38,240 nucleotides of DNA from a virus. Below, piece by piece: positions 1 through 37,771 of this stretch. The translations under genes and the position numbers were made by a program. Numbering within the stretch: the first letter of the stretch is position 1; the number at the start of each line of letters is the position of its first letter. The stretch covers positions 1 to 38,240 of IMG/VR virus record IMGVR_UViG_3300046468_000037; one strand, 5' to 3'. The notes beneath the pieces were generated by a model that saw nothing but the letters and a program-made list of their open reading frames with translations, searched no databases and had not been told where the DNA came from.

Positions 1-2597
1 GTTCCTGTCTTGCCCCTGTAAAGTGGCAATAGTCATGCGTTGGGTAGACGAAAACATAAAGCTCTTAAACTGCCCGATTGTCTTGCCTAACTCGCTGGAC
101 ATAAACAACGGCCTTTCTTGGCCCGGCTCTACAATTACTCGCCGTGACTCTTTGGCAATCATTGCGCCCCATTTTCTTTCAAGAGCAGGGTTATCCCAGT
201 TGCGGGCATTAGACAGCCACAAGCCCTCGCCTTTATCTGCGTGCTTCTTTAGCTGTTCCATCATTAATGTAGCATCAGTGTCGGTTATGCCTAGCCTCTT
301 TAAGCGCGGATCAATAATGCCTTTAAGCAAGTCATCAATAATGCTGTTTTGCATAGTTACTGCATGAAGCTGTTTGACGCTAGTTGTCCAGTAGTCCATT
401 AAGTTAATTCGACCAAACTTGTCAGTCATGCTTTGGACGCCACGCTCAAACCTTGTGGTTGGGGTTACATAGTCATCAACATCGGAGATAAGTTTAGATC
501 GCCCTTGCAACAACAGCTCCGCGCCAACTCCATATTGACGGGCTTCTTTGGCCGACATCTTGAACGCCCGCAAGTTGCTCACTAACGGAACCAAACCTTT
601 ACTAAACGTGCGACCAAATCCTTCGGCCATGAAAATACGAGCAACATCAGGAATAGAAGACGCAACCACGCCGCCCATAAAGCGCATATAGTTTAGATTG
701 CGCGCCACACGGCCAGCTCGCACCCAAGGGTTATCAGGATCAGGTATGTTGTAAACGCCACGTATGCGGTCATACATAGCTTGAAGCCTGTCTTGATCGC
801 GTTTTGATTGCTTGCCAAGCTTTATCCGCTCCGCCTCATCTTTGGCTTTTACTTGCAAAGCGGTGTAGTCGTTAGCAATTTCAGTTTTGAATCCGTCAAG
901 CGATGTTGTTTGATAGCGCCTCATCATTTCAATATCAATTGCTGTTGATCGCGCATACGAATTAGCAAGCATCTCTATGTCGTTTTCTAGGAACTCCTCA
1001 ACAAGATTGTCGGGGATGTTAAAGACGCGCTCTTTAAAGACGCCAGCCTTTTCGACGCCGTTGACCTTTCCGCCAGTCGATCCTTCGCCAATTTTCCAGT
1101 CATACGGTAAAGAGTGGTTTACTGATATCCGCTGGCTGATACGGTCGGCAATGTCTTGATAGTAGTCATCATCGGCTAGACCTGTTTCGCTGTCATATCG
1201 CGGGTCAGCTTTCTTTGTCTCATCCATCCGCAAGGCTTTTTCCCCAGCCTCACGCTGAGCTTTTGACATCGGCCCCTCAAAGCTTCGGAAGGCATCCGCT
1301 TCTGCGCGAAAACGTATATCTTCGCTTTTTAACCAGCCGCTAACCTTTGAGATAAATTGCGGCAAGTTTGCGTTAATGGCATCTTTATTCCACCGGCGAT
1401 TCAAATAAGAAACTGCGGTTGATACATCAACGTCTTCGGGAAGCAATCCAACTTCAATTGCATTCTTTTTTATGGGCTCATAAAGCTCATGGCGAAAGGC
1501 TTTTGCAGACTGGGCCGCCTCCGGAATATCAGAAACGTCACCGTTACGTAGCGCCCGAGAAACTGTTTGATTGAACTCATAAGGGCGAAGCTTGCCACCG
1601 CCATTCTTGTATTGTCGATACAACTTGTTGTGCTTTTCCAGAGCGTTAGCCAACAAACCGCGCGACAATGTAGCCTCGGATTCAACGGCGTTTGTGACGC
1701 CACCGTCCACGGCATAAGGGTTTTCAAACAAACTAGCAGTTGCTTTACGCATAGACCTTGACGCGCTTAACAGTCCCTGAGTAAGAGGGTCCCATGCGAA
1801 TGCCTTTGCTAGTATTCGCGCCGCTTTGCCGCTGATCTTAACGTCACCTAATTCTTCCATCGCACCAGCAGAAAGATCTTCTCCCGGAAGCAATTCGGGA
1901 CTAAGAACGGTATCCTTTCCTTCAGCAAGCTTTGGCTCAACATCTGTTGAATAACGAACTTGGTCAAGCTGTTCGGGTGTCTGCCTTGCTAGCGCCTTGA
2001 AAGAACTTCCTAGCGCCCCGCCTAATAACATCGAAGCGCCTACATTTATAGCTGATTCACCAAGCTCTCGCGTCATCTGGTTTCTGTGTAACGCCGCCTC
2101 AGTCACTGCGGCCTCTGCACCTGCAACACTGCCCGTGATCATGCCCGCCTTCAGTAGTCCATTGCCCGCTTTGTACGTTCCTGCAACAGCTCCGCCAATT
2201 GGGATCAACGTGAGATCGGCCATCATAATGGGAAGTCCAACAGCCGCACCCATGAAGCCAGCTTTTTCAATGGTTTCACGGTCGTTGGTTTCTTGTTGGA
2301 ATTGTGCGCGCACGGCGTTGATTTCGTCTTCGTTATCAGCGTATGCGGCATGACTAATAAACTTTTCGTTGCGCTTTTCTTCTGCCGTAAAGTAGTCATA
2401 GGGGTTGAATGATTGATCATTAACGCCATTCGGCAATCCGGGCTTGCGGCTCACAAAAGAACCAATGATATTTTCTTGTCTAAAGTAAGCCCCCGCCGTT
2501 TCAATTACCGACGGCTCATCCTCAATCTGCTCACGCGTTACAGCGTTTGACAGCTTGTTAAAAAATATAATGTCTTCATCGTAGTCTTCAAAAGGCA
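1..2597 (-). CDS. gp16-like ejection (internal virion) protein, haplotype A, C-terminus off window
   Basis: The frame is open from the ATG at 2597 to base 1 (865 codons, no stop), so the C-terminus is missing. The start MPFEDYDEDI lies immediately after the 789-aa gp15-like gene. Residues about 75-150 are rich in Gly/Ala/hydrophobic residues (GAAVGLPIMMADLTLIPIG and following), as in membrane-penetrating ejection proteins of T7-like phages. Near the visible end are LMDYWTTSVKQL and GKTIGQFKSFMF. These correspond in order and character to EAWTNAGRKAF and TIMQLKSFPITI in the 774-aa protein at 31464, while the N-terminal hydrophobic block corresponds to one in the 510-aa protein at 33775. This single chain therefore appears to cover what two genes cover at the other end of the window. 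Expected role: virion protein injected with the DNA to form a channel across the host envelope. The family call rests on position and architecture; no catalytic motif was recognised. Confidence 0.75.
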
Positions 2598-4967
2598 TTA
2601 TTGTCCTGCCTTATCTTCTTCAACCTGATCAATTAGGGCCGATTGCCGCAACGCTTCTCGCCTACCTTCACCACTCTCATAGAGTGCAGTGCCAAGATCC
2701 GCCAAGCTTTCTTGGATTACTTCCGCACCAGCACGTCTTATTCGGCTTGGCGCTTGGATTACTTTCGCCGCCGTCGATCCAACGCCTCGCAAATACTCAC
2801 TTAATATGGTTCCTTCGGGGCCATAAATATCCGTCGCAGTTGGCGTCTCACGTCCTCGCTCTTGCTGTTCCTCAAAGCGCTTAACTCTCTCAGGATACGA
2901 AGCCTCTATATCTTCTTCACGCAATTCTTTGGTAGATATTGCGCCGCCTAGCGCCTCATCAGCCACGCGCCGTGCATAAGCTTCACTAGCGTTGTAATAA
3001 CCGGAGCGAACTATTAGCTCGCCATTTTCATCTTTAACCATGACCCGATATCGCGGATTTGCTTTTGAAGCTGTGCGTCGGGTGTATTCATCGGTCAACA
3101 AGAAAATATTGTCGTTATCAAAGTTTATATCTGGGTTTTCTTGCCTGATCTCGTAACCAATCTCAGCACGTAAATATTCAACACTTCCGTTTGCATCCCC
3201 GTAATATTGCTCGGGCGCAAACATCATTCGTCCAAATGTGCTTTCGGTAAAATTGCTTTGCATAACGTCATCAGCAAATCTTTTCGCGGCGTCAACCGAA
3301 GAACCGTCAAGGTACTGAGATCTAAATAACGCACCCCATTCTCGTTGGGCGTCAGCAAAACCACGGTCACCTTCTTGTAAGCCGGTTGCACTGGTTGTCC
3401 ATTCAGCAATTTCTTTTTCGTATTCTTTTTTGATTTGATTAGTGCGAACAGAAATGCGCTCTGCGGAAGCTGGCTCTAATAACTGCTGGCTTCGCTTGTA
3501 TGCGTCAGCAGGCTCCAACCCAGCATTCATTAGCGTGATCATTTCTTGTGCGAATGCCCGCGTCGGTCCGTCAACTACTGACTCAAACTTGCCGGGCTGT
3601 TGGTCAACCATATCGACAAACTGAACTGCGGAAATAATTTGCTCGGGCTGTCCGCTCGTAATCATGCCATTTACCGAAATCTTCAATGCGTCGGGAACAC
3701 GATTAATTTTTTGAATGTACACCGCACCAGCGAGCAATTGCTGATCAACCGTACCCTCACTAAATTGTGGAGCGTAAGAATCTCGGTAATTCTCATTTAC
3801 CTCTGATTGAGTTGGGGCAAACATTGGATTGCCTTCACCCTTCAGCTTTGCCGCAAACTGTCGATTAACTTGATCGGCCTCAACCTCTGACGCAACACGC
3901 GCCCTGCTCGCCTTCCGCATCGAAGTCATTTTTGCTTCGCTTATATTGCCAAGCTCAAACTGCTCCCTTGTGAACGCATCGGTCTCTTCGGGGCTATACT
4001 TACCTTCGCCAATACCCACCTCGAAGTCCGAAACCATGATTGCGCTCGCGGTGTCTTCTTTGGTCAGTGCCTTGCTGTATCGGGTTATTTCTTGAGCAAT
4101 TTCGCCTTCAAGCTGTCTTTTCTGCTCGGGAGTCAAGCCGTCGATTGAATCTTTGACGACCATGTTGCTTAAAAACTGTTCAGCGGCTCGAACCTGTTCG
4201 CGCAAGGTTCCTGCAGTTTTAAAGAATCTTGATACCTGCCCTAGATTGCTTTGAACAATTAATCGATCTTCTAACTCATCGCGAATTTTTTGCGCTTCAT
4301 CAAGAGAAATAAATTTAACATTATCAGCTAAAACATTTTCTATTTTTGTGCGGATCGTTTCTGCTCGTGTGTCATCGGCCTCATAAACGGCTTGAGCAAG
4401 ATCATCTTTTAACATATCGAGATCTTCAGTAACCGTCGCCAAGTTGGTGTCGAAGTCTAACGCCCGCCGAGCATCCGCAATTCTTCCTCCAAGACGCATG
4501 CCCTCATCTTCAAGGCTAAGGCGTAGGTTCGCCGCCATCTCTGGTGGTAAGCCCTTGGTGACGCCACCAATATAGCCTTCCCATAGCTTATTAAACTGCT
4601 CTGGATCAGGCTCATCTGCAAACTGCTCTTCAAGCTCCATGAGCCTCTTGCGACCATCAACACGAACGCCCGAGCTATAAGCATTCAGCGCCGCTTCGTT
4701 GTATGCCTGATCGTAGATAGAGATTTGAGATAGAAAGCCCTCTCTAAGTTCTGGGGCTTCTGGCGATTCGCTATCCTTTGCGGCCTCCATACCAGACGCA
4801 ATGCCAGCCTCTTGACCGCGCTTTGTTTGAATCTTAGCGCCAACCTCAAACGCAATGTCCCCGACCTGTTCAGCCAAGCCAGAGAGAGCCTGCAAGCGTT
4901 TAGCCTGAGACGTATCTACACCTGTTGGCGTAAACCTGCCGTAGTAATCAATGCGCTTCTGAGCCAT
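2598..4967 (-). CDS. gp15-like internal virion protein, haplotype A (789 aa)
   Basis: A long, soluble, mostly helical and acidic protein placed between the gp14-like and gp16-like genes, the position of the T7 gp15-type ejection protein. It starts MAQKRIDYYGRFTPTGVDTS with a good ribosome site (AAAGGAAA). The first 43 residues are identical to those of the 678-aa protein at 35310; beyond AFEVG the two diverge strongly but keep scattered motifs such as the SIYDQ-(A/S)-(Y/F)-N stretch. It lies 11 bp downstream of the gp14-like gene and its stop abuts the next start. Likely role: part of the ejected periplasmic tube. The call rests on gene order and family architecture; no enzymatic domain was recognised. 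Confidence 0.75.
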   Translation of the reverse strand: MAQKRIDYYGRFTPTGVDTSQAKRLQALSGLAEQVGDIAFEVGAKIQTKRGQEAGIASGMEAAKDSESPEAPELREGFLSQISIYDQAYNEAALNAYSSGVRVDGRKRLMELEEQFADEPDPEQFNKLWEGYIGGVTKGLPPEMAANLRLSLEDEGMRLGGRIADARRALDFDTNLATVTEDLDMLKDDLAQAVYEADDTRAETIRTKIENVLADNVKFISLDEAQKIRDELEDRLIVQSNLGQVSRFFKTAGTLREQVRAAEQFLSNMVVKDSIDGLTPEQKRQLEGEIAQEITRYSKALTKEDTASAIMVSDFEVGIGEGKYSPEETDAFTREQFELGNISEAKMTSMRKASRARVASEVEADQVNRQFAAKLKGEGNPMFAPTQSEVNENYRDSYAPQFSEGTVDQQLLAGAVYIQKINRVPDALKISVNGMITSGQPEQIISAVQFVDMVDQQPGKFESVVDGPTRAFAQEMITLMNAGLEPADAYKRSQQLLEPASAERISVRTNQIKKEYEKEIAEWTTSATGLQEGDRGFADAQREWGALFRSQYLDGSSVDAAKRFADDVMQSNFTESTFGRMMFAPEQYYGDANGSVEYLRAEIGYEIRQENPDINFDNDNIFLLTDEYTRRTASKANPRYRVMVKDENGELIVRSGYYNASEAYARRVADEALGGAISTKELREEDIEASYPERVKRFEEQQERGRETPTATDIYGPEGTILSEYLRGVGSTAAKVIQAPSRIRRAGAEVIQESLADLGTALYESGEGRREALRQSALIDQVEEDKAGQ
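4840..4967. repeat. direct repeat, left copy (gp15-like N-terminus)
   Basis: 128 bp with about two mismatches to 37219-37346. Identity stops abruptly upstream of base 4840, marking a mosaic junction inside the gp15-like gene. Confidence 0.85.
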
Positions 4968-4978
4968 TTTATTTCCTT

Positions 4979-5431
4979 TTACTTCGGCAATAACTGCAAT
5001 GCTTTTACTGCGCCGCCTAGCAATGAGCCAGCGGCCCCAAGGTCTGTTGCCCCTGATTTTGCTTGTCGTTCTAGTGCCGATCTCCGCAAGCGTTCTGATA
5101 GGTCAATAGTCATTTCGCTAAGACCTGCTTGTCGTGCGCTTTCCAATGCCAGACTTGCTGGCGTACCTTCCCCACTAATTCCTGCGGTCGAGAGTGCCGC
5201 GACGTTAGCCGCCAATGCCCGGTTCAGCTCTTGGCGACGTTGTAGCTCTTGGCTTTGCGCCGCTAGTTCTTCCTGCTTGGCTTGCTCTTTGAGTGCTATC
5301 TCTTGAGCTTTACCAGCTTGCACCTGACCATAAGCTGATACCGCCGTTCCTGTTGCGGACAGGATTGTTGGAAGATAAGGAACTACTGCCTTACCTGCGG
5401 AAGCTAATATTGCAAATATTGGGAGAGGCAT
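4979..5431 (-). CDS. gp14-like internal virion protein, haplotype A (150 aa)
   Basis: A small Ala/Gln-rich protein with a hydrophobic N-terminus (MPLPIFAILASAGKAVVPYL), followed by a helical segment with many KxxEL/QxxEL repeats and the stretch ALSTAGISGEGTPASLALES. This layout is typical of T7 gp14-type ejection proteins of podoviruses. The ATG follows directly on the stop codon of the tail tubular B gene (TAG-ATG), so translation is probably coupled. The 140-aa protein at 37349 is its allele: the central region is nearly identical, but the N-terminal hydrophobic segment (about 10 residues longer here) and the C-terminal tail differ. Expected role: forms the outer-membrane part of the DNA-ejection channel. 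Confidence 0.8.
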   Translation of the reverse strand: MPLPIFAILASAGKAVVPYLPTILSATGTAVSAYGQVQAGKAQEIALKEQAKQEELAAQSQELQRRQELNRALAANVAALSTAGISGEGTPASLALESARQAGLSEMTIDLSERLRRSALERQAKSGATDLGAAGSLLGGAVKALQLLPK

Positions 5432-5901
5432 CTAGTTACCCTCGATCTCGTATTCAATCATCTGTATGTGCATGGGAGTAGGATCTGGACACGTAATCGT
5501 CGGCACAATATCTCTACCCCATCCGTTAATATCGTAAACATCGTCTATTATGCCACTAATAGGGACAATAGAATTGCCTGTGAGCGGAGACGTATCGCCC
5601 GATGCACCAAAAGCACGTATAGGCACAGCAAGCCCGTCAATTTCTATGCCATAAGACTCGTTTACACGCAGATTCATGCGGACAATCTTCTTGAGTCTCA
5701 TCTGATTCTGGCCAGAACCTATATTGGTGTTCAGCGGCATAGGCTTAATAGTAGGTACAAAGTTTAAGCCGACCTCATAAGTAGTTAGTGAATACACCTC
5801 ACTAGGATCTAGCGTGATTTCTCCGCCGGATACAATGTACGAAGACAAGGTATAGTTCTCATTGAAGTCGCCAAACCCTTCACGAGTAATGGCTTTGACC
5901 G
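5432..5901. repeat. direct repeat, left copy (tail tubular B 3' end)
   Basis: About 99% identical to 37771-38240 with no indels, offset 32339 bp. This sets the probable genome period if the sequence is a circular or terminally redundant assembly. Confidence 0.9.
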
Positions 5902-7987
5902 TTTCACCTTCAAAATGGTCCAGTCCGTCGATAACGCCAGCCACTTGAACACTTTTGATGGAGCAATCCATGCGGTAATCAAAGTCCCAACGCTCGATAA
6001 AGAGTCGATTCACGCTATTAACGTTACGTTCTACAGTCATAAAGAGCTGATCATCGACAACACAAACGCTTTTGATTTCTCCGCCGGTTGTCCACCGCGT
6101 AAACCCGTTGATATCTTGGCTTCTCAGGGTGTTAAGAACCGTTCCTGTACCGTCCTCATTGACAATAAATAGCCAGTTAGCGTCGTCACTTGCAGTACCC
6201 GCTAGGAGCGCCATATCAACCGGCTGCTTGATTAAATGAGAGGCCAGTACCGACCTATCGTCCGTGGTGTAAGCGTCCTCGTTGAACGAATACAGGAAGC
6301 CCAGAAGAGACTTGCCGTGCCGGTCCACAAAAATGGTAGATCCGTCGACATCTTGGACCTCAATATTCCTTGCGCCGTGCGATGTCTGTGGCTGGATGTT
6401 GATCGAGCTAGGAGTGACCGGCTTACTCGTTACAGCAAACTCTGCGCCAGAGGTAAATATCTGCAAGTTTCTGCCGGGATAAACGTCAACAATGTCATTC
6501 AGCTTGCGCGCTGAGATGGTTGCAAAGATTGCCTCGTCGTCATCCCCGTCATCTATGTCGAAGTCAAAGAATGCGCCGGTCTTAGACATGAAAACTGATT
6601 GCGGTTTGGATCGAGTGCCGCCAAGTACCAATCGGCCTTCGTAAAAACACGCGCTCTTTGGATATCCACGGGTTGCAGACCAAACATCTTCTTTACGCGG
6701 AGAGCCTGATTGCGTCTTGGCAAACTCAACAGTATTAGTTGCAGTACCTTCTGTTACGAATGCAGAAAACAATTCAAACGCCTTTGCTGATTCGCCAGAT
6801 ATAGTGATCGTATATTGTCTATCGCCAAGAGCGCCAGCCGTCACAGATACGCCCGTTTCACCAAAAACAGGCATCTCTTGCAGGTTCTTCTGGATGTTAA
6901 ATACCGTAGCACTTTGCTCATCCGCAGTGCCATCACCGGCAAAAGTAATCTGCTTTGATATAACAGACTCAACATCAATCTCAAAACGGTCGCCGACCTC
7001 CCAGTCATGGCCTGATCCATGTTGTAAAGTCATTATCTGGATTTCATCTTGCGGCGTAGGGCTTAGTGCATCGTCAAAGTCATATTGAGGTATGTTGGTG
7101 AATGGGATGTTATCCAAAAACCAATCATCATCGGTGCCAAGGTTTACAAGACGCATTGGCTCAAAGTTACCGAAGATCAAGATTACATTCTCAATCGGAG
7201 CAACACGTATGCTCTCAATGTCGGACGATGAAAGGCCGGTATATGTAGGCTTGATGTCCGCAACTCTTGTGGTCTGTATGTTCAAACCAACAAGTTGAGA
7301 ACGGAAGATCGCTATGTTGTCCCGTGTAAACTCGATAAGGTAGTGCCGGTCGTCCTCAACACTCATATCCACTAGGCGAGGAGTGCTTAAGATTGCTGAT
7401 TCTTGATACAAAGACAGCCCAGCGATTGTGACTGTGGCCGATCCCAAGTCAGTAGAGCCAACGCGAGCAAGACGCCAATAACGCGCTGTCTGATCAACCA
7501 ATAAGCGGAAGTTTTGCGGGTTAGTTCCGATCAAAGCAACGTCTTCTGCGTCGGTGTAGGTTACATCGTCGGTAGAATATTGAACCTTAAACTCTGTGCT
7601 GGTGCCGCTAGACAGGCTGATCTGCCGAATGTCTATAAACTTGATCGCCTGATCGGATGACAAGTCCATCTTCGCCACAACATACGGATCATTCGTACCG
7701 ATTGCTGTAGTTGTCGAGGTTGTCGTGGTGTCATCGTCGTCATTGAGTACAGAAGCCGTACCGCCATTGGGCATGGTGTACGTGGGAGACATCTTTGTAA
7801 GGCCCTTAACGCACTCAGTAATGAACTCAGTGCCGGGTCTGCGTCTCAAGCCGCCCTGCGGGACAATTACGACGTTATCAGCCGTCTCAACAGCTTGATA
7901 ATACTGATTGATATCAATACGGCCTTTCAGTAACGGAGAGACTTCTCCGCTAACGAAGCTCGATTGAATGAATCGAGTCTTGGCCAT
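5432..7987 (-). CDS. tail tubular protein B / tail nozzle (851 aa)
   Basis: The N-terminus (IQSSFVSGEVSPLLKGRID, then NVVIVPQGGLRRRPGTEFI) is the hallmark start of the podovirus tail nozzle protein (T7 gp12-like). The protein builds the distal tail tube below the gp11-like ring. After the start there is an Asp/Thr-rich linker (NDDDDTTTTSTTT, about residues 83-95), followed by about 100 residues ending near YWRLARVGSTDLGSATV that look like an inserted beta-sandwich (discoidin/F5-8 type). The start overlaps the stop of the tail tubular A gene by one base (TAATG), with GAGGT as ribosome site. Its C-terminal 156 codons are repeated almost exactly at the right end of the window. Confidence 0.88.
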   Translation of the reverse strand: MAKTRFIQSSFVSGEVSPLLKGRIDINQYYQAVETADNVVIVPQGGLRRRPGTEFITECVKGLTKMSPTYTMPNGGTASVLNDDDDTTTTSTTTAIGTNDPYVVAKMDLSSDQAIKFIDIRQISLSSGTSTEFKVQYSTDDVTYTDAEDVALIGTNPQNFRLLVDQTARYWRLARVGSTDLGSATVTIAGLSLYQESAILSTPRLVDMSVEDDRHYLIEFTRDNIAIFRSQLVGLNIQTTRVADIKPTYTGLSSSDIESIRVAPIENVILIFGNFEPMRLVNLGTDDDWFLDNIPFTNIPQYDFDDALSPTPQDEIQIMTLQHGSGHDWEVGDRFEIDVESVISKQITFAGDGTADEQSATVFNIQKNLQEMPVFGETGVSVTAGALGDRQYTITISGESAKAFELFSAFVTEGTATNTVEFAKTQSGSPRKEDVWSATRGYPKSACFYEGRLVLGGTRSKPQSVFMSKTGAFFDFDIDDGDDDEAIFATISARKLNDIVDVYPGRNLQIFTSGAEFAVTSKPVTPSSINIQPQTSHGARNIEVQDVDGSTIFVDRHGKSLLGFLYSFNEDAYTTDDRSVLASHLIKQPVDMALLAGTASDDANWLFIVNEDGTGTVLNTLRSQDINGFTRWTTGGEIKSVCVVDDQLFMTVERNVNSVNRLFIERWDFDYRMDCSIKSVQVAGVIDGLDHFEGETVKAITREGFGDFNENYTLSSYIVSGGEITLDPSEVYSLTTYEVGLNFVPTIKPMPLNTNIGSGQNQMRLKKIVRMNLRVNESYGIEIDGLAVPIRAFGASGDTSPLTGNSIVPISGIIDDVYDINGWGRDIVPTITCPDPTPMHIQMIEYEIEGN

Positions 7988-16166: not shown

Positions 16167-16366
16167 CAAGGGCAATCAACGACGACTACCTAATGACTCA
16201 TCAAGAGATTGCCGATGAGCTAGGTATTACCCGGAGTAGAGTAGCTCAGTTAGAAAAGAGCGCCCTGACCAAGCTTCGGGATCGTTTCATTCTTCGGCAG
16301 TATTATCTGGACTATGTTAGTTCCAGCTCTGAATCTCGTAATCTGGATCAAGTTCCTTACGCCTGA
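16163..16366 (+). CDS. sigma-70 region 4-like HTH protein (67 aa)
   Basis: MTHQEIADELGITRSRVAQL followed by EKSALTKLRDRF is a near-textbook sigma-70 region 4.2 helix-turn-helix, the part that recognises the -35 element. Nothing of regions 2 or 3 is present, so this is a stand-alone DNA-binding domain and not a full sigma factor. It ends the plus-strand cassette, starts by ATGA overlap and runs 50 bp into the convergent HNH gene. Its place next to the late promoter region makes it a candidate late-transcription regulator (inference). Confidence 0.75.
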   Translation: MTRAINDDYLMTHQEIADELGITRSRVAQLEKSALTKLRDRFILRQYYLDYVSSSSESRNLDQVPYA

Positions 16367-16712
16367 CTTCATCGCGGTAATGCGCCGCGATATCCTTCCT
16401 CAGTAGTTTATTAGTCTTGTATATCTCGTTACTGACTAACCGCAAATGATCCATGTGATCATCGCCAAACATCTCACGCAACCAGTCATGGAATGCTATC
16501 GGCTGTTCAGTGAACCATCGGTGACAGTAGTGGCAAAGGCTTACTGCATTACCCGGACCCGGCCCCATGCTCCAGCGTAGTCGCTTGTTACGCCTACCAA
16601 AAATATGAGCGCACTCAAGTCGATCAGTCTTGTGGCAGTGCAAGCACTTCTGATCTCGTAGCCTTACCGCCTTACTAAACCAAATGTCTGCTTGGTCTCT
16701 CTTCACTGCCAT
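16317..16712 (-). CDS. HNH endonuclease-like / NinG-like zinc protein (131 aa)
   Basis: From the ATG at 16712 (MAVKRDQADIWFSKAVRLRD), the chain carries CLHC (23-26), ECAHIFGRRN (33-42), N55 in PGNAVSLC and C60-x2-CH (60-64). This is a zinc-bound beta-beta-alpha nuclease layout, as in HNH and NinG/Rap recombination endonucleases. GAGGG lies upstream of the ATG; a longer start at 16772 would deepen the overlap with the previous gene. The 3' end overlaps the plus-strand sigma-like gene. A role in recombination or branch processing fits the neighbours. Confidence 0.72.
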   Translation of the reverse strand: MAVKRDQADIWFSKAVRLRDQKCLHCHKTDRLECAHIFGRRNKRLRWSMGPGPGNAVSLCHYCHRWFTEQPIAFHDWLREMFGDDHMDHLRLVSNEIYKTNKLLRKDIAAHYRDEVRRKELDPDYEIQSWN

Positions 16713-16851
16713 CGTCTGCCCTCGTGTATTGACGTTCTCGAAGTATTGCCTTCTCGCTGTTCCCGCAGTCACATGACCAGCCTTCCAGCTTGTGAGGGTA
16801 TTCGCTCTTAAACTGGGGGACCATGATCTTGAAGCACTCAGTGCATTTCAT
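16675..16851 (-). CDS. zinc-ribbon small protein (58 aa)
   Basis: Two Cys pairs, CTEC near the N-terminus and CDCG mid-chain, with KLEGWSCDCGNSEKAI between and after, form a small zinc ribbon. The ATG at 16851 overlaps the stop of the upstream 81-aa gene by 14 bp; longer starts up to 16887 are possible. The end overlaps the HNH gene. Function unknown; possibly nucleic-acid binding. Confidence 0.55.
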   Translation of the reverse strand: MKCTECFKIMVPQFKSEYPHKLEGWSCDCGNSEKAILRERQYTRADDGSEERPSRHLV

Positions 16852-17083
16852 CTGGGGTAAATACGATTTCATACTCCGGCGCTCCATCGTCTATCAATGC
16901 TGATACCCATATCTCTGCGAAGTCATCCAAACTTAAATCGACTGTGATCCCGTTAGCTGCCCAGCCTAGAATATAAACATCGCACTCTTTTGGATTCTTG
17001 CCACTGGTTGCGCCGCCGATGTCTTGCGTCTTGATAAGCGCTTGACCGCCACCCGGTAATGGACAGCTAATAATCGGGATCAT
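16838..17083 (-). CDS. hypothetical protein (81 aa)
   Basis: The product begins MIPIISCPLPGGGQALIKTQ and ends EYEIVFTPDEMH. It is acidic and probably mainly beta. It starts by ATGA overlap with the metallophosphoesterase gene and overlaps the zinc-ribbon gene. No family recognised; the operon packing supports it. Confidence 0.6.
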   Translation of the reverse strand: MIPIISCPLPGGGQALIKTQDIGGATSGKNPKECDVYILGWAANGITVDLSLDDFAEIWVSALIDDGAPEYEIVFTPDEMH

Positions 17084-18246
17084 GCTTTAACCTCATCAAT
17101 GCCGACCTTGAATCGACTGTGCTCGCCATAGTTCTTATCGAGTATAACGCAGGACATGGACCTTGCAGAGCCATAGCCCGAAGCTGAGTGGAAGCTGTCG
17201 GGTGGGCAGAGGACCCCAAAACTCTCCAGATGCAACCCGCCCAGCTCCGTCACAGTCCGGTGATGGATATGCCCGTGGTAAAGATATCGGTGAGTCGTTC
17301 GACCCCATTCCTCTGCGTAGTCTCTTGTAACAGCTTCATAAAGCGCCTGAGTCTTTACCCGGTCTCCGTGGTGCATAACAACGAGAGTCTTGCCCCATTC
17401 AAAATGTATCCACTTGGAGAAGTTGTCGAACACTTTCACCCGTGGTTCATTATGGAAGTACAGGCGCATCATTTCATTTAGCCAGAGGCTCGCATCGGGA
17501 TCATGGTTACCCCTTACGTTGATCAACCAAACTTCCTTGTGCGTCTCCAGCATCCGGGTAATTAGGACTTTGAAGAGGTTGCCGACAATACGAATGACCC
17601 GGCCCAGCCTTCCATCGACATCGACCGGGGTTCCTTTGGCTGTCTTGTTGTCACCTGAGTTAGCGTGAAGGAAGTCACCCAAGTTAATCAGAGCGCCTAC
17701 TTCCGAGTCACCTGCCGCAGAGACCAGCTTATCGACGGCCCTGATCAGTACGTCTTGGGCAATGTTTGTATCCCAGTCATCGCCACCCGTCTCAGGAGAC
17801 CAGCAGAGGGCGTTGAGGTGATGATCTCCTATGAGGTAGGCCGATAGCCTATCTTCATTCTTCGTTGATTCTGGAGCCTTTACGGGCTTGTAGAGGCCAT
17901 CTATCTCTTCGAGGAATCCAGCCTTGAATGCCTCAAGTGAAGCCTCAAGCATTGCCTCTTTGTCTGCCATGGATTTAACCCACTGGCCGACCGGCTTGCC
18001 ATCTTCATTGTAGTACGTAGAGACGCCCCGGACCTTGAAGACATCCGGAACGGTGCGAGTCATATCATGCTCGGGTGAATAGCCTTGGGCAGCGGCCCTA
18101 GATTTTATGGCTTGAAGAGAATCTCTAACAGAAAATCGGGTAATGCCTATCTGCTGGCTGATCTTTGTGTAGCCCAAGCCCTGCTCGTGAAGCTCTACAA
18201 TTTGTCGCTGTCTGTCGGTATTGCAATACTCAAGTAATGACATCAT
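17080..18246 (-). CDS. HTH plus calcineurin-like metallophosphoesterase (388 aa)
   Basis: Residues about 8-50 hold a resolvase-type HTH (RQRQIVELHEQGLGYTKISQ, then IGITRFSVRDSL). Residues 135-390 carry the metallophosphoesterase signature in order: GDHH (140-143), LGD (189-191), RGNHD (245-249), HHGD (292-295) and GHIHH (325-329). These two-metal enzymes cleave phosphodiester bonds; in phages they occur near replication and recombination genes as DNA nucleases or phosphatases. The fused HTH suggests DNA targeting. The ribosome site GGGGGGAG abuts the ATGATG pair, so the second ATG (18243) is equally possible. All metal ligands appear present. Confidence 0.82.
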   Translation of the reverse strand: MMSLLEYCNTDRQRQIVELHEQGLGYTKISQQIGITRFSVRDSLQAIKSRAAAQGYSPEHDMTRTVPDVFKVRGVSTYYNEDGKPVGQWVKSMADKEAMLEASLEAFKAGFLEEIDGLYKPVKAPESTKNEDRLSAYLIGDHHLNALCWSPETGGDDWDTNIAQDVLIRAVDKLVSAAGDSEVGALINLGDFLHANSGDNKTAKGTPVDVDGRLGRVIRIVGNLFKVLITRMLETHKEVWLINVRGNHDPDASLWLNEMMRLYFHNEPRVKVFDNFSKWIHFEWGKTLVVMHHGDRVKTQALYEAVTRDYAEEWGRTTHRYLYHGHIHHRTVTELGGLHLESFGVLCPPDSFHSASGYGSARSMSCVILDKNYGEHSRFKVGIDEVKA

Positions 18247-18263: not shown

Positions 18264-18659
18264 TTAAGTGCGCCTCCCGAATGGCACGTTAATCGAGTAT
18301 TTTTCGACTAGCAGCCTACTCAAGACCTCGTAAATTTCGTTGACCTCCACGGGATTAATCTTTCTGGTGGACTCAACGCCTGTTACAGCCTTTTGAATTG
18401 GACGCCACATATAATCCTTAATCAGGTACATAGTGGGATCAATGGGGACGCCTTCCTTGATAACGGTCTTCATGTCCATACCATGCGCCGCCATAACACT
18501 AGCGACTTCTCGGCAATAAGCATGGATCGCATCGTTTTGTTTTCCGGTTCGGGTGAGAGGAATGATCTCGTAGATATTCCCCTTATCTTGGTTAGCCCGG
18601 ATGTATTCACAAAACTGATCGGCTTGGAATTTGTTGTTTACAAACCACCGCTCGCTCAT
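18264..18659 (-). CDS. NinB-like recombination protein (131 aa)
   Basis: The central RTGKQNDAIHAYCREVASVM followed by a basic KDYMWRPIQKAVTGVESTRK and the C-terminal VEKYSINVPFGRR follow the pattern of phage NinB/Orf-type recombination mediators (RT-x2-QN-x3-H early in the chain, then W and ST motifs). Such proteins help load annealing or recombinase proteins on ssDNA. The start overlaps the upstream stop (ATGA). The family call is moderate; the neighbours (annealing protein, HNH, metallophosphoesterase) agree with it. Confidence 0.6.
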   Translation of the reverse strand: MSERWFVNNKFQADQFCEYIRANQDKGNIYEIIPLTRTGKQNDAIHAYCREVASVMAAHGMDMKTVIKEGVPIDPTMYLIKDYMWRPIQKAVTGVESTRKINPVEVNEIYEVLSRLLVEKYSINVPFGRRT

Positions 18660-21745: not shown

Positions 21746-22099
21746 TTAAGAATAGGTCCACATAACCGGGGTGGTCTTCCGGTCGTCAACGTGTACGAAT
21801 GTCCTAGCAACACCGATAGAGAACCCCATCTTGATTGCTTCATGCACGATGTTCATACGCTCGAAGCCGTTAGACACAGCTATGTCAGCCGCGAGACCTT
21901 GGCAATGATAGCCGGTGCCGGGTTCAGACTTGCGCGCCTCGGCAGGATGGGTTGCATCCCTGTAGCCCGAAGTGATTACGAAAGGAAAGCCCACACGTTC
22001 GCGCAGCTCATCGAGCTTTACGAGAAACTCATGGTCCATCTCGTTCTTGTTAGTGTGGGTACAGTTGAACTCTTCGAGTCTAAAGAACTTGTAGGTCAT
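21746..22099 (-). CDS. endolysin, peptidase M15-type (117 aa)
   Basis: A zinc L-alanyl-D-glutamate or D-Ala-D-Ala peptidase fold. SGYRD is at 44-48, the zinc ligands are H65 and D72 in GYHCQGLAADIAV, and H103 in FVHVDD. It would cleave peptidoglycan cross-links at lysis. There is no signal peptide, so it depends on the holin encoded immediately upstream, with which it overlaps by 4 bp. It is the last gene of the late transcript before the early control region. Confidence 0.88.
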   Translation of the reverse strand: MTYKFFRLEEFNCTHTNKNEMDHEFLVKLDELRERVGFPFVITSGYRDATHPAEARKSEPGTGYHCQGLAADIAVSNGFERMNIVHEAIKMGFSIGVARTFVHVDDRKTTPVMWTYS

Positions 22100-22494
22100 T
22101 GACGTGCTACGTTCTTGGTCTTTTCTACAGTACGCATACCGCCCAATCCCAGCATACCCAGTAGTACAGGCATCATTTCGCTAACGTCCAGTGACGGGAT
22201 TAATAGAGGGTTCTGAGTCCATGCAGTTAGGTAAATGTTTACAATTGGAACAATAAGAAAATTAACGCTGAAACCAAGAACACATACCCAACCACACGCC
22301 GGTCGCCAGCCAGAGACAAAAACCGATTTGTGCTTGGCCTCATTCTGGTTGACATTGATTTGAGCTTTTGCAATTTCATGGGTCTGTCTCTCCGCTAGTG
22401 TTGCGATCTCGTGGGCTAACCGGCTGCGCTCATCCGCATCAGGTATAACCTTGTCCAACAGCTTGGCAATCGGGGTGACCAGTAGCTCAAGCAT
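22096..22494 (-). CDS. holin, 3-TM family (132 aa)
   Basis: The N-terminal MLELLVTPIAKLLDKVIPDA, then EAKHKSVFVSGWRPACGWVC, and the C-terminal LGMLGLGGMRTVEK match the 'Holin of 3TMs' family, first described for gene-transfer-agent release. There are two or three hydrophobic segments. The ATG at 22494 overlaps the stop of the coiled-coil gene. A lysis timing role follows from the neighbouring endolysin. Confidence 0.85.
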   Translation of the reverse strand: MLELLVTPIAKLLDKVIPDADERSRLAHEIATLAERQTHEIAKAQINVNQNEAKHKSVFVSGWRPACGWVCVLGFSVNFLIVPIVNIYLTAWTQNPLLIPSLDVSEMMPVLLGMLGLGGMRTVEKTKNVARQ

Positions 22495-22826
22495 TAGATG
22501 CCGCCCTTGATCCACACGCCAATAACAGCCATGACACCGGCCATAATGATGCGTTCAATCCATTGGTTCTTGGCTATGCTAATCTCGATAGCTTGGATGC
22601 GCTTCTCGTGGTTCTTTACTTCATCTTTCACGATAGCTTGGATCTCATCAATGCGCTTGTGGGCGCGCGTTACAGTCTCGGTCAAGTGAACCTGCCTCTG
22701 CTCCATGCTTGATAAGTCTTGAAGAGTTTGGGCAATACTTGTGAGAGCGGACTTCATCTCGCTAACGTCTTGCGCCATCGCTTCCTGCTGGGCTTCGAGC
22801 TTCGCTACTGACCGCTCTATACTCAT
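22494..22826 (-). CDS. coiled-coil, tail-anchored membrane protein in lysis cassette (110 aa)
   Basis: Residues 1-85 form a long heptad-rich coiled coil (starting IERSVAKLEAQQEAMAQDVS). One C-terminal membrane helix (IIMAGVMAVIGVWI) ends the chain. This resembles XhlA/haemolysin-type lysis accessory proteins, and it precedes the holin. No separate Rz/Rz1 spanin pair was found. Role inferred from context. Confidence 0.65.
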   Translation of the reverse strand: MSIERSVAKLEAQQEAMAQDVSEMKSALTSIAQTLQDLSSMEQRQVHLTETVTRAHKRIDEIQAIVKDEVKNHEKRIQAIEISIAKNQWIERIIMAGVMAVIGVWIKGGI

Positions 22827-28845: not shown

Positions 28846-31467
28846 TTATGACCAATTGACTGTTAGCTTGCTGTTTAAGCCTTCCATTACGTTTGTAACG
28901 CCACTAGCCAATGTTACGTAAGTGCCGCCGCTTGTGCCTGTCTTTATCAAGCAACTGTTACCAGTAATAACGCCAGAAAGAATATTGCTTGTTGTATCTG
29001 GGTTTACCCAAATGCACGGCTCCCCAGTGTCGGTTTTTGCTGTGTTACCGACAATTTGAAAGTGCTGTACGTCTTCGACAGCAATACGGCGTTCGGTGTT
29101 ATTACCATTAATGATTACGTTGTTAGTACCGTCTACCCTAGTGACGCCTTCAATTAAGGCGTTGCCTTGTATTTTGACAGAAGATGGTCCTGTTACATTA
29201 GCATTAGCAAAAGCAACTACCCCGCCGATATGTGCATTGTCACTAACTACAATCTTAGCTGTAGCTCCTTGAGACAAAGAGGTTACGTAGTCTATGTACT
29301 TGTTGCCCACTACATTGAAGCTTTCTGTAAGCGTAGTAGTGTTTGTTATGTTTCCACCAATGTATGAGTTAACAATATTAACGTTGTGTGTTTCATCAGG
29401 AATAAACAATCTAGCAGTACCTGTTCCTGTACCTGCGCCAGTTGCGATAAAGACTGTTCCAACATTACTATCGGCCGCACCAATAGCCGTAAAGTCTGTA
29501 GTACCTGTGGTAACTATCTTATAAGTATTGGTAGCACGTATATTTTCTGCGGTTCTAATTTCACCTTGTGCGTTGGCTGCTCTAAAAGGAAGAACATCAC
29601 CAGTTAAGTACACATCATCAATTGTTAAGTTATGCGGATTGTCAACCTTAATGCCACCACTAGCTAAGAAACCATGAGCTAAACGCACGTCTTGTTGTAT
29701 TTGAGAGCCGGGTATTAATAAAAAGCTAATTGCGTCTGCAAGGTTTCGACAAGTACCTTCTACATGAAAGTTTGTAATAGAACATAGCGTGTCGTGCTTA
29801 CAAGAGCCTCGTATAAACTTATTTACATAGGCAGTGGAAGCGTCTGACTTTAGGAACACATTGTTGAAAAAGGCTTTGTTACCGTCTCTGAGGTAAATTT
29901 GAACAAGACAGTTATCGAGACCTCTTGGAGGAGTATCAAGTGTGTCTTCAAGTGTGTCTCTGGCTGCCCTAGCAATAATGTCTACAGTCAAATTGTTTAC
30001 GTTAGATTGTTCGCAAGCCTCTATCCAGAACGCGCCTGAAGGGTTGTTAGAAAACGATCTATCAGAATCGTTAATAATGTTAATGTTGCTTGCAATGAAT
30101 TTCTGATTGCGATCGCCAAGCACCCCGGTTGACGCATAGTTTTTTACGGAAGCGTTGTTAATGCTGTAGTTAGCGCCGATGGCTGCAAAGTTGTATGAGG
30201 TATGCGGAGCGTAGTCAGTGTTAGAGAAATTCTTAGTCACACCATCTACAAGGAACGTATCCGGCAACAAGCCAATGTCTTCTGCGTATACGTCTGATAC
30301 AAGGGTGGTTCCCTCTTGATATGTAATAACATCATTCTCATCAAAGTATGCTTGATACGTGATAAAGCTTTGGAAAGACATATTCCTAAAGACACAGCCC
30401 TCAATGACTGTTGTCCCAAAGCTATTGACGCGAACGCCAGCAATGCCATGATAGTTTTCAAAAAGGCAGTTAGTCACATGCACGGTTGTGTCTGAGTTAT
30501 ACGATTCGACTTTTAAAAACGCGCCAAGTGTTGGCGCAATACTGTCATAGCCAAACAATGGGTAGTCTATGTCTGTCCACGGCTCACTGCCTGTTTTGTA
30601 TGTTCCTCTGCCACCATCAACAAAAACATTCTCGAATGCCACAGTCATTTTGTTTGTGTTAGTTGCTCGCTTACACTCAAACCGCCCTGTGCTTGAGTAG
30701 GTTGTTTGTATAACAAACTTAAAGTTTTTTAAGCGTAGAAACTCACCTGTCGCATTAATTGTGCCAGTAATCTTGTAAGTCTTGTTTCCGCCGTCTAGCC
30801 ATGCGCCTGTAGTAGTGACGTAATTAACGGCGTTCCGTAGCTTTACAGTGTCGTCCGCATCTCCATCGCCAACCGTACCAAAGTCATCTGCGCTAATAGT
30901 CTCGCGGAGCTTATCCTCTACGGTCGTGTCTACTGCGCCAGTGCCGCCGGGCGTATAGGTAACTAGAGCGGCATCTGTAATGCCGGGAGGTACAGTCGTT
31001 GTTGCTGTTACTGCGCCGGTAGGGCTGAATGATAGGTACTTGTTTGCTCTCGTAGCAGCATCAGGCAGCTCCATTGAGATTGTTGTGGAGTCTGTAATCG
31101 GTCTACGAACAGACTGGTCAAACGACCGATTGGTCTGCTCACCTGCCAGCCAAAGGTTATCAAAGTCAGAGTTAACATCGGATGCTAGAAAGTCACCTGA
31201 GTTGGTGTAGTTTTGGTTACGCTCATACGGCATGTCCCTGTAGAGGGTCATAATATCGTTCAGGGTCGCGCCTGCGGTTAAAGTGATAGTACCGCCGTTC
31301 TCATCGCCAACGCCCGCCACAGAGTAATCTGTGCCCTCTGAGAGGGTAGTGCCGTTTTGCAATACAACGAGATCGTCTTTGTCTACTATCTCAAACGTAT
31401 AGGAGAAGATCGTCTGACCAGCAGTCGCGCTATATTGGTTACGGCTTGTGTTGTCTGCTACAGTCAC
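28846..31467 (-). CDS. tailspike: T7 fibre N-terminus plus right-handed beta-helix (873 aa)
   Basis: Residues about 5-125 match the T7 tail-fibre N-terminal (tail-attachment) domain: NQYSATAGQTIFSYTFEIVD, TLYRDMPYERNQNYTNSGDF and the NLWLAGEQ-x-NRSFDQSVR stretch. From about 190, SADDFGTVGDGDADDTVKLR is the opening motif of pectate-lyase-like beta-helix tailspikes. Long runs of N/T/V repeats follow (for example NNVIINGNN). It probably binds or cuts surface polysaccharide. The start is GTG, with GGAGG seven bases upstream, overlapping the end of the ejection gene. It is likely the tail-anchored fibre to which the giant fibre attaches (inference). Confidence 0.8.
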   Translation of the reverse strand: MTVADNTSRNQYSATAGQTIFSYTFEIVDKDDLVVLQNGTTLSEGTDYSVAGVGDENGGTITLTAGATLNDIMTLYRDMPYERNQNYTNSGDFLASDVNSDFDNLWLAGEQTNRSFDQSVRRPITDSTTISMELPDAATRANKYLSFSPTGAVTATTTVPPGITDAALVTYTPGGTGAVDTTVEDKLRETISADDFGTVGDGDADDTVKLRNAVNYVTTTGAWLDGGNKTYKITGTINATGEFLRLKNFKFVIQTTYSSTGRFECKRATNTNKMTVAFENVFVDGGRGTYKTGSEPWTDIDYPLFGYDSIAPTLGAFLKVESYNSDTTVHVTNCLFENYHGIAGVRVNSFGTTVIEGCVFRNMSFQSFITYQAYFDENDVITYQEGTTLVSDVYAEDIGLLPDTFLVDGVTKNFSNTDYAPHTSYNFAAIGANYSINNASVKNYASTGVLGDRNQKFIASNINIINDSDRSFSNNPSGAFWIEACEQSNVNNLTVDIIARAARDTLEDTLDTPPRGLDNCLVQIYLRDGNKAFFNNVFLKSDASTAYVNKFIRGSCKHDTLCSITNFHVEGTCRNLADAISFLLIPGSQIQQDVRLAHGFLASGGIKVDNPHNLTIDDVYLTGDVLPFRAANAQGEIRTAENIRATNTYKIVTTGTTDFTAIGAADSNVGTVFIATGAGTGTGTARLFIPDETHNVNIVNSYIGGNITNTTTLTESFNVVGNKYIDYVTSLSQGATAKIVVSDNAHIGGVVAFANANVTGPSSVKIQGNALIEGVTRVDGTNNVIINGNNTERRIAVEDVQHFQIVGNTAKTDTGEPCIWVNPDTTSNILSGVITGNSCLIKTGTSGGTYVTLASGVTNVMEGLNSKLTVNWS

Positions 31468-33788
31468 TTAAATGCCTCCGGTAATGGCTCACCGGGTTCC
31501 CACCAGTAGCCTTGATCGTAATCCCTCATTCGATTACGCATAATACGATTATACTTTCTCTGGGCGTCTGGGTCAGCCATAAGCTCTAGTTGATCAAACA
31601 TTGCGTTCTTTAGTGTTTGAATCTGCCAAATATCGGGCGAGTAACGCTCTGCAAAATCTATGGCTTCACCTAAAACGTGGGTTTCTTCGCGCTTCGATGC
31701 TTGTTGAATATTGCCAACGCCAAATTTCCATGTGCGATCTACAAACTCACCTGTTGGCCCAAACGCTGTGGCTAATGGTCCAGATCCAAAACGGTTTGCG
31801 TCTGAAAAAATAAAGTCGCCAAAAATTCCCATTCCACCACCTTGCAACATTGCCGCGCCTATAAACTTTTCTGGACTGCCTTCAGAGTCTAGGATTGGTC
31901 TTGGCTCTCTTCCTGCCGCAAGATCCTTAGCCTGAATCGCAATGCCTCCAAGGAGTGTTGTAGTAGCCATAAGGCCGCCAAAATACTGCAACTTCTTACC
32001 GTTAGTATCTTGATAGGCCATCCTCATCATATGTCCCATAAGGATCGTTATAGGAAATGATTTAAGTTGCATAATTGTGCGAATACCCATGCCAGATACA
32101 GTAGCGCGTGACGTTCCCATAGTGGTCACAGCTCGGACTCTCGCATCTGGCGTAGGCACGGCGAAGTCCGTCTCAGATAAAACCATCTGGTGAAACTTAA
32201 CGCCTCCCTCTTGGGTCATGTCTGCATAAGGCGCACCGCGTAACATCAATGGCGGTTGCTTTCTAAACACATCCCAATCTTGCTCAGTAATCCCATATCT
32301 GCCAAATGCGTCTTGTATTCCCATTTCAAGATCGGCAAATGATTTGTTAAAGTTGTCAGCGAGTAGGGCAGAGAACTCCATGCCAAATGCTTTGCGCCCA
32401 GCATTAGTCCACGCCTCTAAGCCCGATGCCCTTAATATGCCTTCAGCTAATTTTGCGGTTCTACCTGTGCCATAGGTATCAGAAAATCTGTTGGCCGCCG
32501 TTTGCCTTGAGGCATTTTCAGCAGTTAAACCAAGGCGGGTTCCAAATATTCGGTCGGCCTCATTGTCTGGGCGCATCAGTGCTAGTTGTTGTTGAATGGC
32601 TTTCCACGGAGAAATATTGTTCATTCTTGAGGTTATAAACATAAACCCCACATCACTAATAGCTGATAAAAAAGCTCCGCCAAGCGTGACCGATGTTATG
32701 ACATTTCTTGTCGCTTCAAAGGCATCTGCCGCAGTCACAAGATCACCGCCATTGACTTGACCTGCCGCAACCTTATAAACGGCATTGTTAAACGATGCGT
32801 TTGCTCCTGATATGTCTTCTTCTAGCTTTGCTCTGTTTAGCAAAAAATCAAAAGTGTTTTGAGGCGAAGGCCCAAGTAGTTCAATAACCGCAATGTCATT
32901 AGACATCATATTTAGATGATCGGTAATTGCATCAAAAAGATTCCCGCGCCCAAAACGGTTTTGATACTTCATCCACGAATCAAAATCTTTAAAATACAAA
33001 AATCGTTTTTCGCCACCCTTGCGAGATAATTTTCTACCTAGTCGTGGGACGCTTAAGCCTTTTGCTTTGTTTAACCCGCCAGTGCTTATGGTCTCATACG
33101 ACGCCGCCAAACCAATTTCAAACTGCTCGTCGCTTAACGGGCGTCCTGCCTCATCGACCATATATCTTCTATCAAGAAGGTCTCGGACAAATTCAGTCCA
33201 TTCTTCTTCGCCAGCATCTTTTACGGTTTTTTGATCATGGCGCTGTGGCAACAAATAACGCTCATTTTTAGAAATAGATCCGCCGCGTCGATTAAACAAT
33301 ACTCTCGTTTGTTCAATAGTCTCATGGTAGGCATCTGCCATTCTCTTAAATGCAGGGTCATCTACTTCTTCCCCATAAATAGCTTTGCCAAATTTAACAA
33401 GCTCTTCCTGATCCTGATCCATGCCAAACATACGAGAGCGGAATCGCGCTAACGCCTCAGCGTTTATTGAGTGAAACTTGCCTTCGTAATATTCGGCTAA
33501 ATACTCGACGTTCTTATACTTGGCATTTCCGCGAGGGTCTTTGGTCATCAAGGCTGTAATACCCGCCGACATGCCCTGTGGGTGCGACTTAACAGAGTCG
33601 TATGCCTGAGATATGCGTACAGCTTGTATAGCTGTCTCACGCTTCTGGCGCGTTAGATTGCCAAGCACATCATCAATGGCTTGATTCGGGTCGTCAGAAT
33701 CAAGGATTGCTTGCGCCACGTCCTTAGATAGACGGTTCTGTGCAAGCGCCTCGTTGACACATCTTTCAAATCCGTTAGCCAAGGGCAC
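31464..33788 (-). CDS. gp16-like ejection protein, C-terminal part, haplotype B (774 aa)
   Basis: A large virion protein with RFRSRMFGMDQDQEELVKFG, a hydrophobic block SVTLGGAFLSAISDVGFMFI, EAWTNAGRKAFGMEF, MQLKSFPITILMGHMMRM and a second hydrophobic block TTTLLGGIAIQA. Order and character match the second half of the single gene at 1-2597. The start overlaps the 510-aa gene. GTG at 33788 has its GAGGT directly adjacent, so TTG at 33782 (MANGFERCV, seven-base spacing) may be the true start. It is followed directly by the tailspike gene. Expected role: inner-membrane part of the ejection channel. Confidence 0.72.
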   Translation of the reverse strand: MPLANGFERCVNEALAQNRLSKDVAQAILDSDDPNQAIDDVLGNLTRQKRETAIQAVRISQAYDSVKSHPQGMSAGITALMTKDPRGNAKYKNVEYLAEYYEGKFHSINAEALARFRSRMFGMDQDQEELVKFGKAIYGEEVDDPAFKRMADAYHETIEQTRVLFNRRGGSISKNERYLLPQRHDQKTVKDAGEEEWTEFVRDLLDRRYMVDEAGRPLSDEQFEIGLAASYETISTGGLNKAKGLSVPRLGRKLSRKGGEKRFLYFKDFDSWMKYQNRFGRGNLFDAITDHLNMMSNDIAVIELLGPSPQNTFDFLLNRAKLEEDISGANASFNNAVYKVAAGQVNGGDLVTAADAFEATRNVITSVTLGGAFLSAISDVGFMFITSRMNNISPWKAIQQQLALMRPDNEADRIFGTRLGLTAENASRQTAANRFSDTYGTGRTAKLAEGILRASGLEAWTNAGRKAFGMEFSALLADNFNKSFADLEMGIQDAFGRYGITEQDWDVFRKQPPLMLRGAPYADMTQEGGVKFHQMVLSETDFAVPTPDARVRAVTTMGTSRATVSGMGIRTIMQLKSFPITILMGHMMRMAYQDTNGKKLQYFGGLMATTTLLGGIAIQAKDLAAGREPRPILDSEGSPEKFIGAAMLQGGGMGIFGDFIFSDANRFGSGPLATAFGPTGEFVDRTWKFGVGNIQQASKREETHVLGEAIDFAERYSPDIWQIQTLKNAMFDQLELMADPDAQRKYNRIMRNRMRDYDQGYWWEPGEPLPEAFK

Positions 33789-37346: not shown

Positions 37347-37348
37347 TC

Positions 37349-37771
37349 TTAATCGCCTTCTTCACCCATTAATTGTTGGGCCTTTATGGAGCCGCCTATC
37401 AATGTGCTTACTGCCGCTAATCCTGCCGTTTGTGTTGCTTGCTTGGCTTGACGTTGTAATGACGCCCTTCGTAAGCGTTCTGATAGGTCAATAGTCATTT
37501 CACTAAGCCCTGCTTGACGTGCGCTTTCCAATGCCAGACTTGCTGGCGTACCTTCCCCAGATATTCCTGCCGTCGAGAGTGCCGCGACGTTAGCCGCCAG
37601 TGCCCGGTTAAGCTCTTGACGTCGTGCTAGTTCTTGGCTTTCTGCCGCTAGTTCTTCCTGCTTGGCTTGCTCTTTCAATGCCGCTTTCTGAGCTTTGCCA
37701 GCTTGCACCTGACCGTAGGCCGACACTGCCGCACTTGTTGCCGCTAATATTGCAAATATAGGGAGAGCCAT
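37349..37771 (-). CDS. gp14-like internal virion protein, haplotype B (140 aa)
   Basis: An allele of the 150-aa protein at 4979. The core AANVAALSTAGISGEGTPAS through SARQAGLSEMTIDLSERLRR is identical, but the N-terminal hydrophobic segment is about 10 residues shorter (MALPIFAILAATSAAVSAYG) and the C-terminus ends KAQQLMGEEGD where the other ends KALQLLPK. It starts at the stop of the tail tubular B fragment. Confidence 0.8.
   Translation of the reverse strand: MALPIFAILAATSAAVSAYGQVQAGKAQKAALKEQAKQEELAAESQELARRQELNRALAANVAALSTAGISGEGTPASLALESARQAGLSEMTIDLSERLRRASLQRQAKQATQTAGLAAVSTLIGGSIKAQQLMGEEGD

Follow-up and report, generated by a model that had tools for sequence, protein, structure and literature searches.

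A constant N-terminus joined to a swapped C-terminus is familiar among phage proteins from tail fibers. Replacement of the tail-fiber C-terminus is stated in the accessible text of PMC10386132. A 2014 study of phage boundary homology (PMC3945230) describes, in the portion available, exchanged fragments bordered by similar segments, as they are here, and reports a contribution of orf and rap of lambda to the formation of mosaics. For the podovirus ejection proteins (gp14, gp15 and gp16 in T7; gp7, gp20 and gp16 in P22), extracts of PMC8954989 and PMC10883804 give the gene order and inferred roles that recur in the DNA considered here, and they report a modular, mosaic organization and P22 hybrids with foreign ejection proteins. 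The locus compared here with these systems lies in a linear IMG/VR virus record, IMGVR_UViG_3300046468_000037, whose whole length of 38,240 bp was analyzed (the window).

Profile matches place a T7-like virion module on the minus strand of the window, with genes for portal (phrog_332), capsid (phrog_3437), tail tubular A (ttA; phrog_394) and tail tubular B (ttB, the nozzle; phrog_376), and the module continues on the same strand with gp14-, gp15- and gp16-like proteins and a fiber. A complete ttB copy (5432–7987) is followed by a gp14-like gene (allele 1, 4979–5431), a gp15-like gene of type 1 (789 aa, 2598–4967) and a gp16-like gene (1–2598; phrog_342 and phrog_684). At the opposite contig end, the C-terminus of a second ttB copy (37771–38240) is followed by gp14-like allele 2 (37349–37771), a gp15-like gene of type 2 (678 aa, 35310–37346), a gp16-like first part (510 aa, 33775–35307; phrog_342) and second part (774 aa, 31464–33788; phrog_684), and a tail fiber or spike (28846–31467), all likewise on the minus strand. 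A gene is truncated at each end of the contig, gp16 type 1 at position 1 and ttB at 38240. The type 1 cassette encodes a single large gp16-like protein, whereas the type 2 cassette has it split between two overlapping genes. Elsewhere in the window, a holin matching the GTA_holin_3TM family adjoins an M15 peptidase endolysin (22096–22515 and 21746–22099).

The gp15-like genes sit between gp14- and gp16-like genes and after the nozzle gene, which is the position of the T7 gp15 gene; for gp14, this order is supported by a weak phrog_418 match in copy 2 only. Neither gp15 matched PHROGs or Pfam at E ≤ 0.001, a sequence search of solved structures returned matches at chance level only, and a phage collection searched for cultured relatives gave no match to the first 100 gp15 residues at E ≤ 0.01. 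Structure models of the two types reached pLDDT values of 67.6 and 67.9. Foldseek with the type 2 model gave no match at E ≤ 0.001, and T7 ejectosome or core chains (7k5c, 6yt5, 7eyb and 9jyy) aligned with Z scores of 6.0–7.1 over 240–471 residues, scores that unrelated helical chains equal. By gene order, the two genes probably encode gp15-like ejection proteins, and the roles assigned to them here are putative.

The sequence-only reading had described gp15 alleles identical at residues 1–43, nearly identical there in DNA and changing abruptly afterwards. The two copies indeed match through the motif AFEVG, and their constant patches (4839–4967 and 37218–37346, minus strand) differ at two positions in nt 1–128 (window 4863 and 4929). 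The abrupt change held for the DNA, which is 57.6% identical at nt 130–700, but was not complete in the protein: residues ~61–106 of the two proteins are still ~48% identical (tblastx row 4787–4650). Upstream, the two gp14 regions are 77.5% identical. The constant core and variable ends ascribed to the gp14-like genes were likewise seen in 39 gp14 sequences out of 41 records examined, with a mean majority fraction of 0.97–1.00 in columns 71–100 compared to 0.55–0.74 near the ends. The gp15 patch was present at 95–98% identity in all nine relatives first compared and also in 47 non-redundant IMG/VR relatives, as ~130 bp that begin exactly at the ATG and lie between two exchanged segments; upstream of the ATG, conservation falls immediately, to a majority fraction of 0.36–0.56 (37 records). 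Judged from these sequences, the recurrence of the patch among relatives is not chance.

To place the junctions, gp14, patch and body regions were compared across 46 usable non-redundant gp15 starts (1035 pairs). Nine pairs were informative, having gp14 at least 95% identical and a gp15 body below 80%. The changepoints fell at nt 104, 107, 107, 122, 122, 137, 137 and 171, so that seven of the nine pairs have their junction at nt 104–137 (codons 35–46, around AFEVG) and the placed joints span nt 104–171 rather than a single point; the ninth pair (L055/L040) could not be placed in an ungapped comparison, probably owing to an upstream indel. Because only four genomes account for six of these nine pairs, at least six exchanges are implied, not nine. 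These four (L003, L045, L122 and the window's second copy, WIN2) have gp14 genes 99.3–100% identical and patches 98–100% identical (103–105 of the first 105 gp15 nt), yet carry four different bodies (55–66% identical). Repeated breakpoints near AFEVG, which the earlier reading had named as the check to make in related genomes, were thus found, and gradual divergence with no common breakpoint was not observed among them. The crossover interval is probably the invariant core at codons 20–35 (nt 58–105; 4863–4910 in copy 1 and 37242–37289 in copy 2, minus strand). Some joints lie elsewhere: L070, L063 and L075 diverge at codon 19, and L047 and L049, with identical capsid proteins, carry a different gp15 N-terminus.

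Both modules around the patch were found in mixed combinations. All four combinations of gp14 and body occur, in the window's two copies (WIN1 and WIN2), in L003 (gp14 99.3% identical to WIN2, body 93.5% to WIN1) and in L009 (gp14 90.9% to WIN1, body 87% to WIN2). Among 49 gp15 starts, comprising the 47 from related non-redundant IMG/VR records and the window's two, there were 32 distinct gp14 tails (16 nt), and all seven tails recurring in two or more starts were joined to multiple bodies, an outcome favored by collapsing identical copies before the count. The far edge of the swapped gp15–gp16 cassette is also sharp and lies at the fiber start codon. The fiber is 96–98% identical to that of the window in L003, L012, L045, L122 and L130 (L130 over 490 nt), and every fiber BLAST match in these five records begins at the second base of the start codon; upstream of it, L003 inspected base by base is unrelated, with 5, 3, 3, 3 and 3 matches per 20 nt. 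In the middle of the nozzle gene (5762–7829), L003 is only ~72% identical (6090–7192) or unaligned between flanks at 96–97%, which suggests another exchanged block. Long and short gp15 bodies also occur under a distant MAKEI-type N-terminus (L115 compared to L113 and L089), and body types may cross N-terminal clades because L115 resembles the window's type 2 body in the alignment.

Linkage across the core was assessed with the 47 gp15 starts that searches with capsid, ttA or ttB had found; the window's own two were not among them. Records without TSQAK in the N-terminus (for example, L070, L063 and L075) were excluded from the codon, linkage and silent-site counts, and two bodies classed as 'other' formed their own classes in the linkage test and were merged into the nearest class for the gp14-tail and silent-site analyses. 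The haplotype at codons 18–19 carried no more information on the body motif after codon 37 than permutations did (mutual information of 0.065 compared to 0.062, p = 0.37, n = 47). The r2 inside the 5′ part was 0.43–0.48. Across the core it was 0.043 for the 32 starts with capsid, as low as which were none of 708 capsid windows of the same geometry, and 0.036 for the 40 with ttA, matched by 18 of 409 ttA windows. The outcome varied with the sample (46, 24 or 47 records): in an earlier 46-record set (32 with capsid, 38 with ttA), none of 709 capsid and none of 433 ttA windows had a value as low, and a 24-record capsid-only subset showed a weak haplotype–body association (p = 0.05) and linkage across the core within the ordinary range, with values as low in 96 of 569 capsid and 169 of 381 ttA windows. 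Background linkage was low as well. Exchange across the core is clear from these alignments, and it is likely, though not certain, that it proceeds above the background rate.

A short conserved segment lies between segments that vary among genomes, different modules are joined at the same place, and nearly all records examined have a single locus with alternative alleles. The proposal that constant patches serve as recombination anchors gains support from the clustered junctions, the mixed gp14 and body combinations and the unlinked flanks, and we consider it probable that the first ~43 gp15 codons have served repeatedly as a recombination joint, with an exchangeable ejection module on either side. 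One module would be gp14 upstream and the other the gp15 body with gp16 downstream, up to the fiber start codon. Crossovers would take place in co-infected cells by homologous recombination through the shared core, perhaps assisted by the Orf- and Rap-like proteins of the phage. Candidates for these are a NinG/Rap-like DNA junction endonuclease (16317–16772, minus strand; phrog_5034, E = 2.6e-15) and, more weakly, a NinB/Orf-like recombination mediator (18264–18659, minus strand; PF05772, 22.0 bits compared to a cut-off of 23.8); no Red-beta-, RecT- or Erf-like annealing protein was found in the subset of ORFs scanned. A protein encoded between the NinG- and NinB-like genes (17080–18246) has metallophosphatase and helix-turn-helix matches (phrog_704, DNA repair exonuclease). 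Joining in frame may work because every body needs the constant N-terminus, likely for assembly with gp14 or the portal. Exposure of the ejection proteins to exclusion by the host or a prophage might be what drives the exchange of bodies: P22 escape from SieA exclusion involves ejection proteins and maps to them, according to an extract of PMC10883804, and this is a possible reason for the swapping.

The core also has the lowest silent diversity, at 0.079–0.080 for codons 20–35 compared to mean values of 0.311 for capsid and 0.287 for ttA, or about a quarter. None of 197 capsid and 121 ttA windows was as low. The margin was thin in a 22-record set, where the core stood at 0.082 and the lowest background window at 0.089, and 1 of 304 windows was as low as codons 2–35. 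Silent identity of the patch stays flat at ~0.79 across capsid silent identities of 0.5–0.9 and climbs only for pairs above 0.9. Recombination alone is insufficient to account for this, and the silent-site conservation of the core is not fully explained. Tentatively, the silent identity of the 48-bp core could be maintained for its use as a recombination anchor, with drifted lineages losing access to a shared pool of ejection modules; if true, a virion gene would contain an exchange site in which the identity of the DNA is itself under selection.

Silent diversity below that of every window compared is also what would be seen if the core were conserved as a cis-acting element, whether through structure in the gp15 mRNA at its 5′ end or as some other DNA signal, and the joint were incidental. 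In nine main-clade sequences, the predicted fold of gp15 nt 1–129 is more stable than those of codon-preserving shuffles (z of −1.4 to −2.7; two intended sequences were absent from this set), and copy 1 of the window reaches z = −2.84 against dinucleotide shuffles. However, 13 sequences with other N-terminal types (z of 0.66 to −1.83) lack the same structure by inspection, and three of the nine main-clade sequences also fold differently. Across 42 unique sequences there are no compensatory pairs, and pairing survives in only 16 of 36 variant states; there is no Rfam match at a useful score and no sigma-70-like promoter. A cis-acting element as the main cause is thus unlikely. An antisense or overlapping gene was rejected as a further candidate: one antisense frame runs through the patch without a stop in 39 of 42 unique sequences, but over 486 nt the best antisense frame is stop-free in only 2 of 46 records, and the other four alternative frames over the patch are open in none of the 42. 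A host-derived or att-like sequence was likewise rejected, as the core pattern occurs in 56 viral-contig stretches and a slightly relaxed pattern in only 2 of genome contigs.

Because all records are metagenome-derived contigs, the conserved patch could itself seed chimeric joins, and the reshuffled gp14 and gp15 combinations could largely be assembly artefacts in which strains were joined at the patch. Strain mixing does occur here, since the window and one relative (G010) look composite, and starts of the same haplotype with different bodies share exact runs of up to 128 nt (median 56; 434 pairs). Proximity of the core to a contig end was seen in 3 of the 35 contigs represented in full among the core-pattern matches, compared to 1.43 expected, a slight excess that is not significant (p = 0.17); the count omits L026 and L012, in which the patch is likewise close to an end of the contig. 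When two starts differ on each side of the core, however, their longest exact shared run has a median of 38 nt and a maximum of 73 nt (345 pairs). Shared runs of 38–73 nt are short for usual k-mers and reads. Combinations also recur across IMG data sets, identical for up to 200 nt upstream and 400 nt downstream (L122/L130, L055/L014 and L010/L011). We therefore regard a largely artefactual origin as decidedly improbable, and genuine exchange at the joint as the better account.

Protein constraint was weighed as a third explanation, in which strong selection acts on an N-terminal docking tag and the flanking parts simply diverge rapidly. Ten of 14 invariant columns among ten diverse gp15 proteins fall in residues 4–30, and this protein-level conservation extends across N-terminal types that do not have the DNA patch. 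In the structure models, residues 1–44 (type 2) and 1–40 (type 1) have pLDDT below 50, and a long helix is modeled from about residue 20 onwards. In T7, gp14 together with gp6.7 bridges the portal and gp15 (PMC11784390, in the part available), and gp14 is proposed, in an extract of PMC8954989, to stabilize the flexible gp15 N-terminal domain, so that a docking role would suit this segment. A docking tag for gp14 or the portal, as the sequence-only reading had offered beside the anchor, is accordingly plausible here, and the two readings are not exclusive and can both hold. Constraint on the protein does not, however, predict silent-site conservation or near-identical gp14 genes joined to four different bodies; as the only cause it is very improbable, being contradicted by these results, while it likely remains a contributor.

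The two gp15 genes of the window are most likely alternative alleles of different strains and not two genes of one phage. A block from the ttB end through gp14 to the gp15 start is present twice, at both contig ends, 32.34 kb apart and with 87% identity across 1070 columns. Read most simply, the assembled sequence would be a unit genome of ~32.3 kb followed by a second pass over the locus in another strain, where the assembly would have run round a circular graph and joined both alleles. The nine relatives found by gp15 search (two with type 1, seven with type 2) each have a single patch copy, and one gp15 start was found in 20 of 21 records of 20–32 kb, many of which are fragments and three of which are among those nine. 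L003 is 96% identical to window positions 1–5761 and carries gp15 type 1, then an open gp16 frame of 1012 codons, then the fiber that follows the type 2 cassette in the window; since its type 1 cassette meets the same fiber, both cassettes fill one slot, from gp14 to the fiber. G010 (32,046 bp) has two different gp15 genes near opposite ends, 29.9 kb apart, with end regions 79% identical over 962 columns. The window (1–5901 and 37219–38240) and G010 (L118 and L119) appear to be unit genomes extended into the allele of a second strain. That one phage truly carries two complete ejection cassettes, by duplication or as a switching system, would explain two different gp15 genes on one contig in the window and G010 but is scarcely credible, given copies near opposite contig ends, a single ttA in G010, the single copies in nearly all other records, the shared fiber slot shown by L003 and the lack in the window of any inverted repeat of at least 40 bp, a lack that, with the single copies, also speaks against phase variation by cassette switching. 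No reverse transcriptase of a diversity-generating retroelement was found in the subset of ORFs scanned.

Two alleles on one viral contig can therefore signify a strain composite, and over-long linear records of the window and G010 type could be mistaken for long genomes with duplicated genes. The relatives of this phage are frequent in IMG/VR, where at least 598 stretches encode a relative of the window's capsid, and the proposed joint would offer, for this uncultured group, a concrete and measurable site for the mosaic exchange of DNA-ejection machinery, as well as a clean case for testing if phages preserve DNA in order to remain recombinable. We noticed no description of this constant gp15 joint in the literature surveyed, which is not proof of absence. 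Compared to the boundary homology described in the accessible part of PMC3945230, the joint here lies inside coding sequence, serves many bodies and is known from sequence alone, in uncultured phages. A constant N-terminal joint with silent-site-conserved DNA is unmentioned for the T7 and P22 ejection proteins in the extracts of PMC8954989 and PMC10883804. With tail fibers, the locus shares a constant attachment part and a variable working part; unlike them, it concerns an internal ejection protein that is swapped together with gp16. Mosaic exchange of ejection proteins is already known, and the new detail is the mapped in-gene junction.
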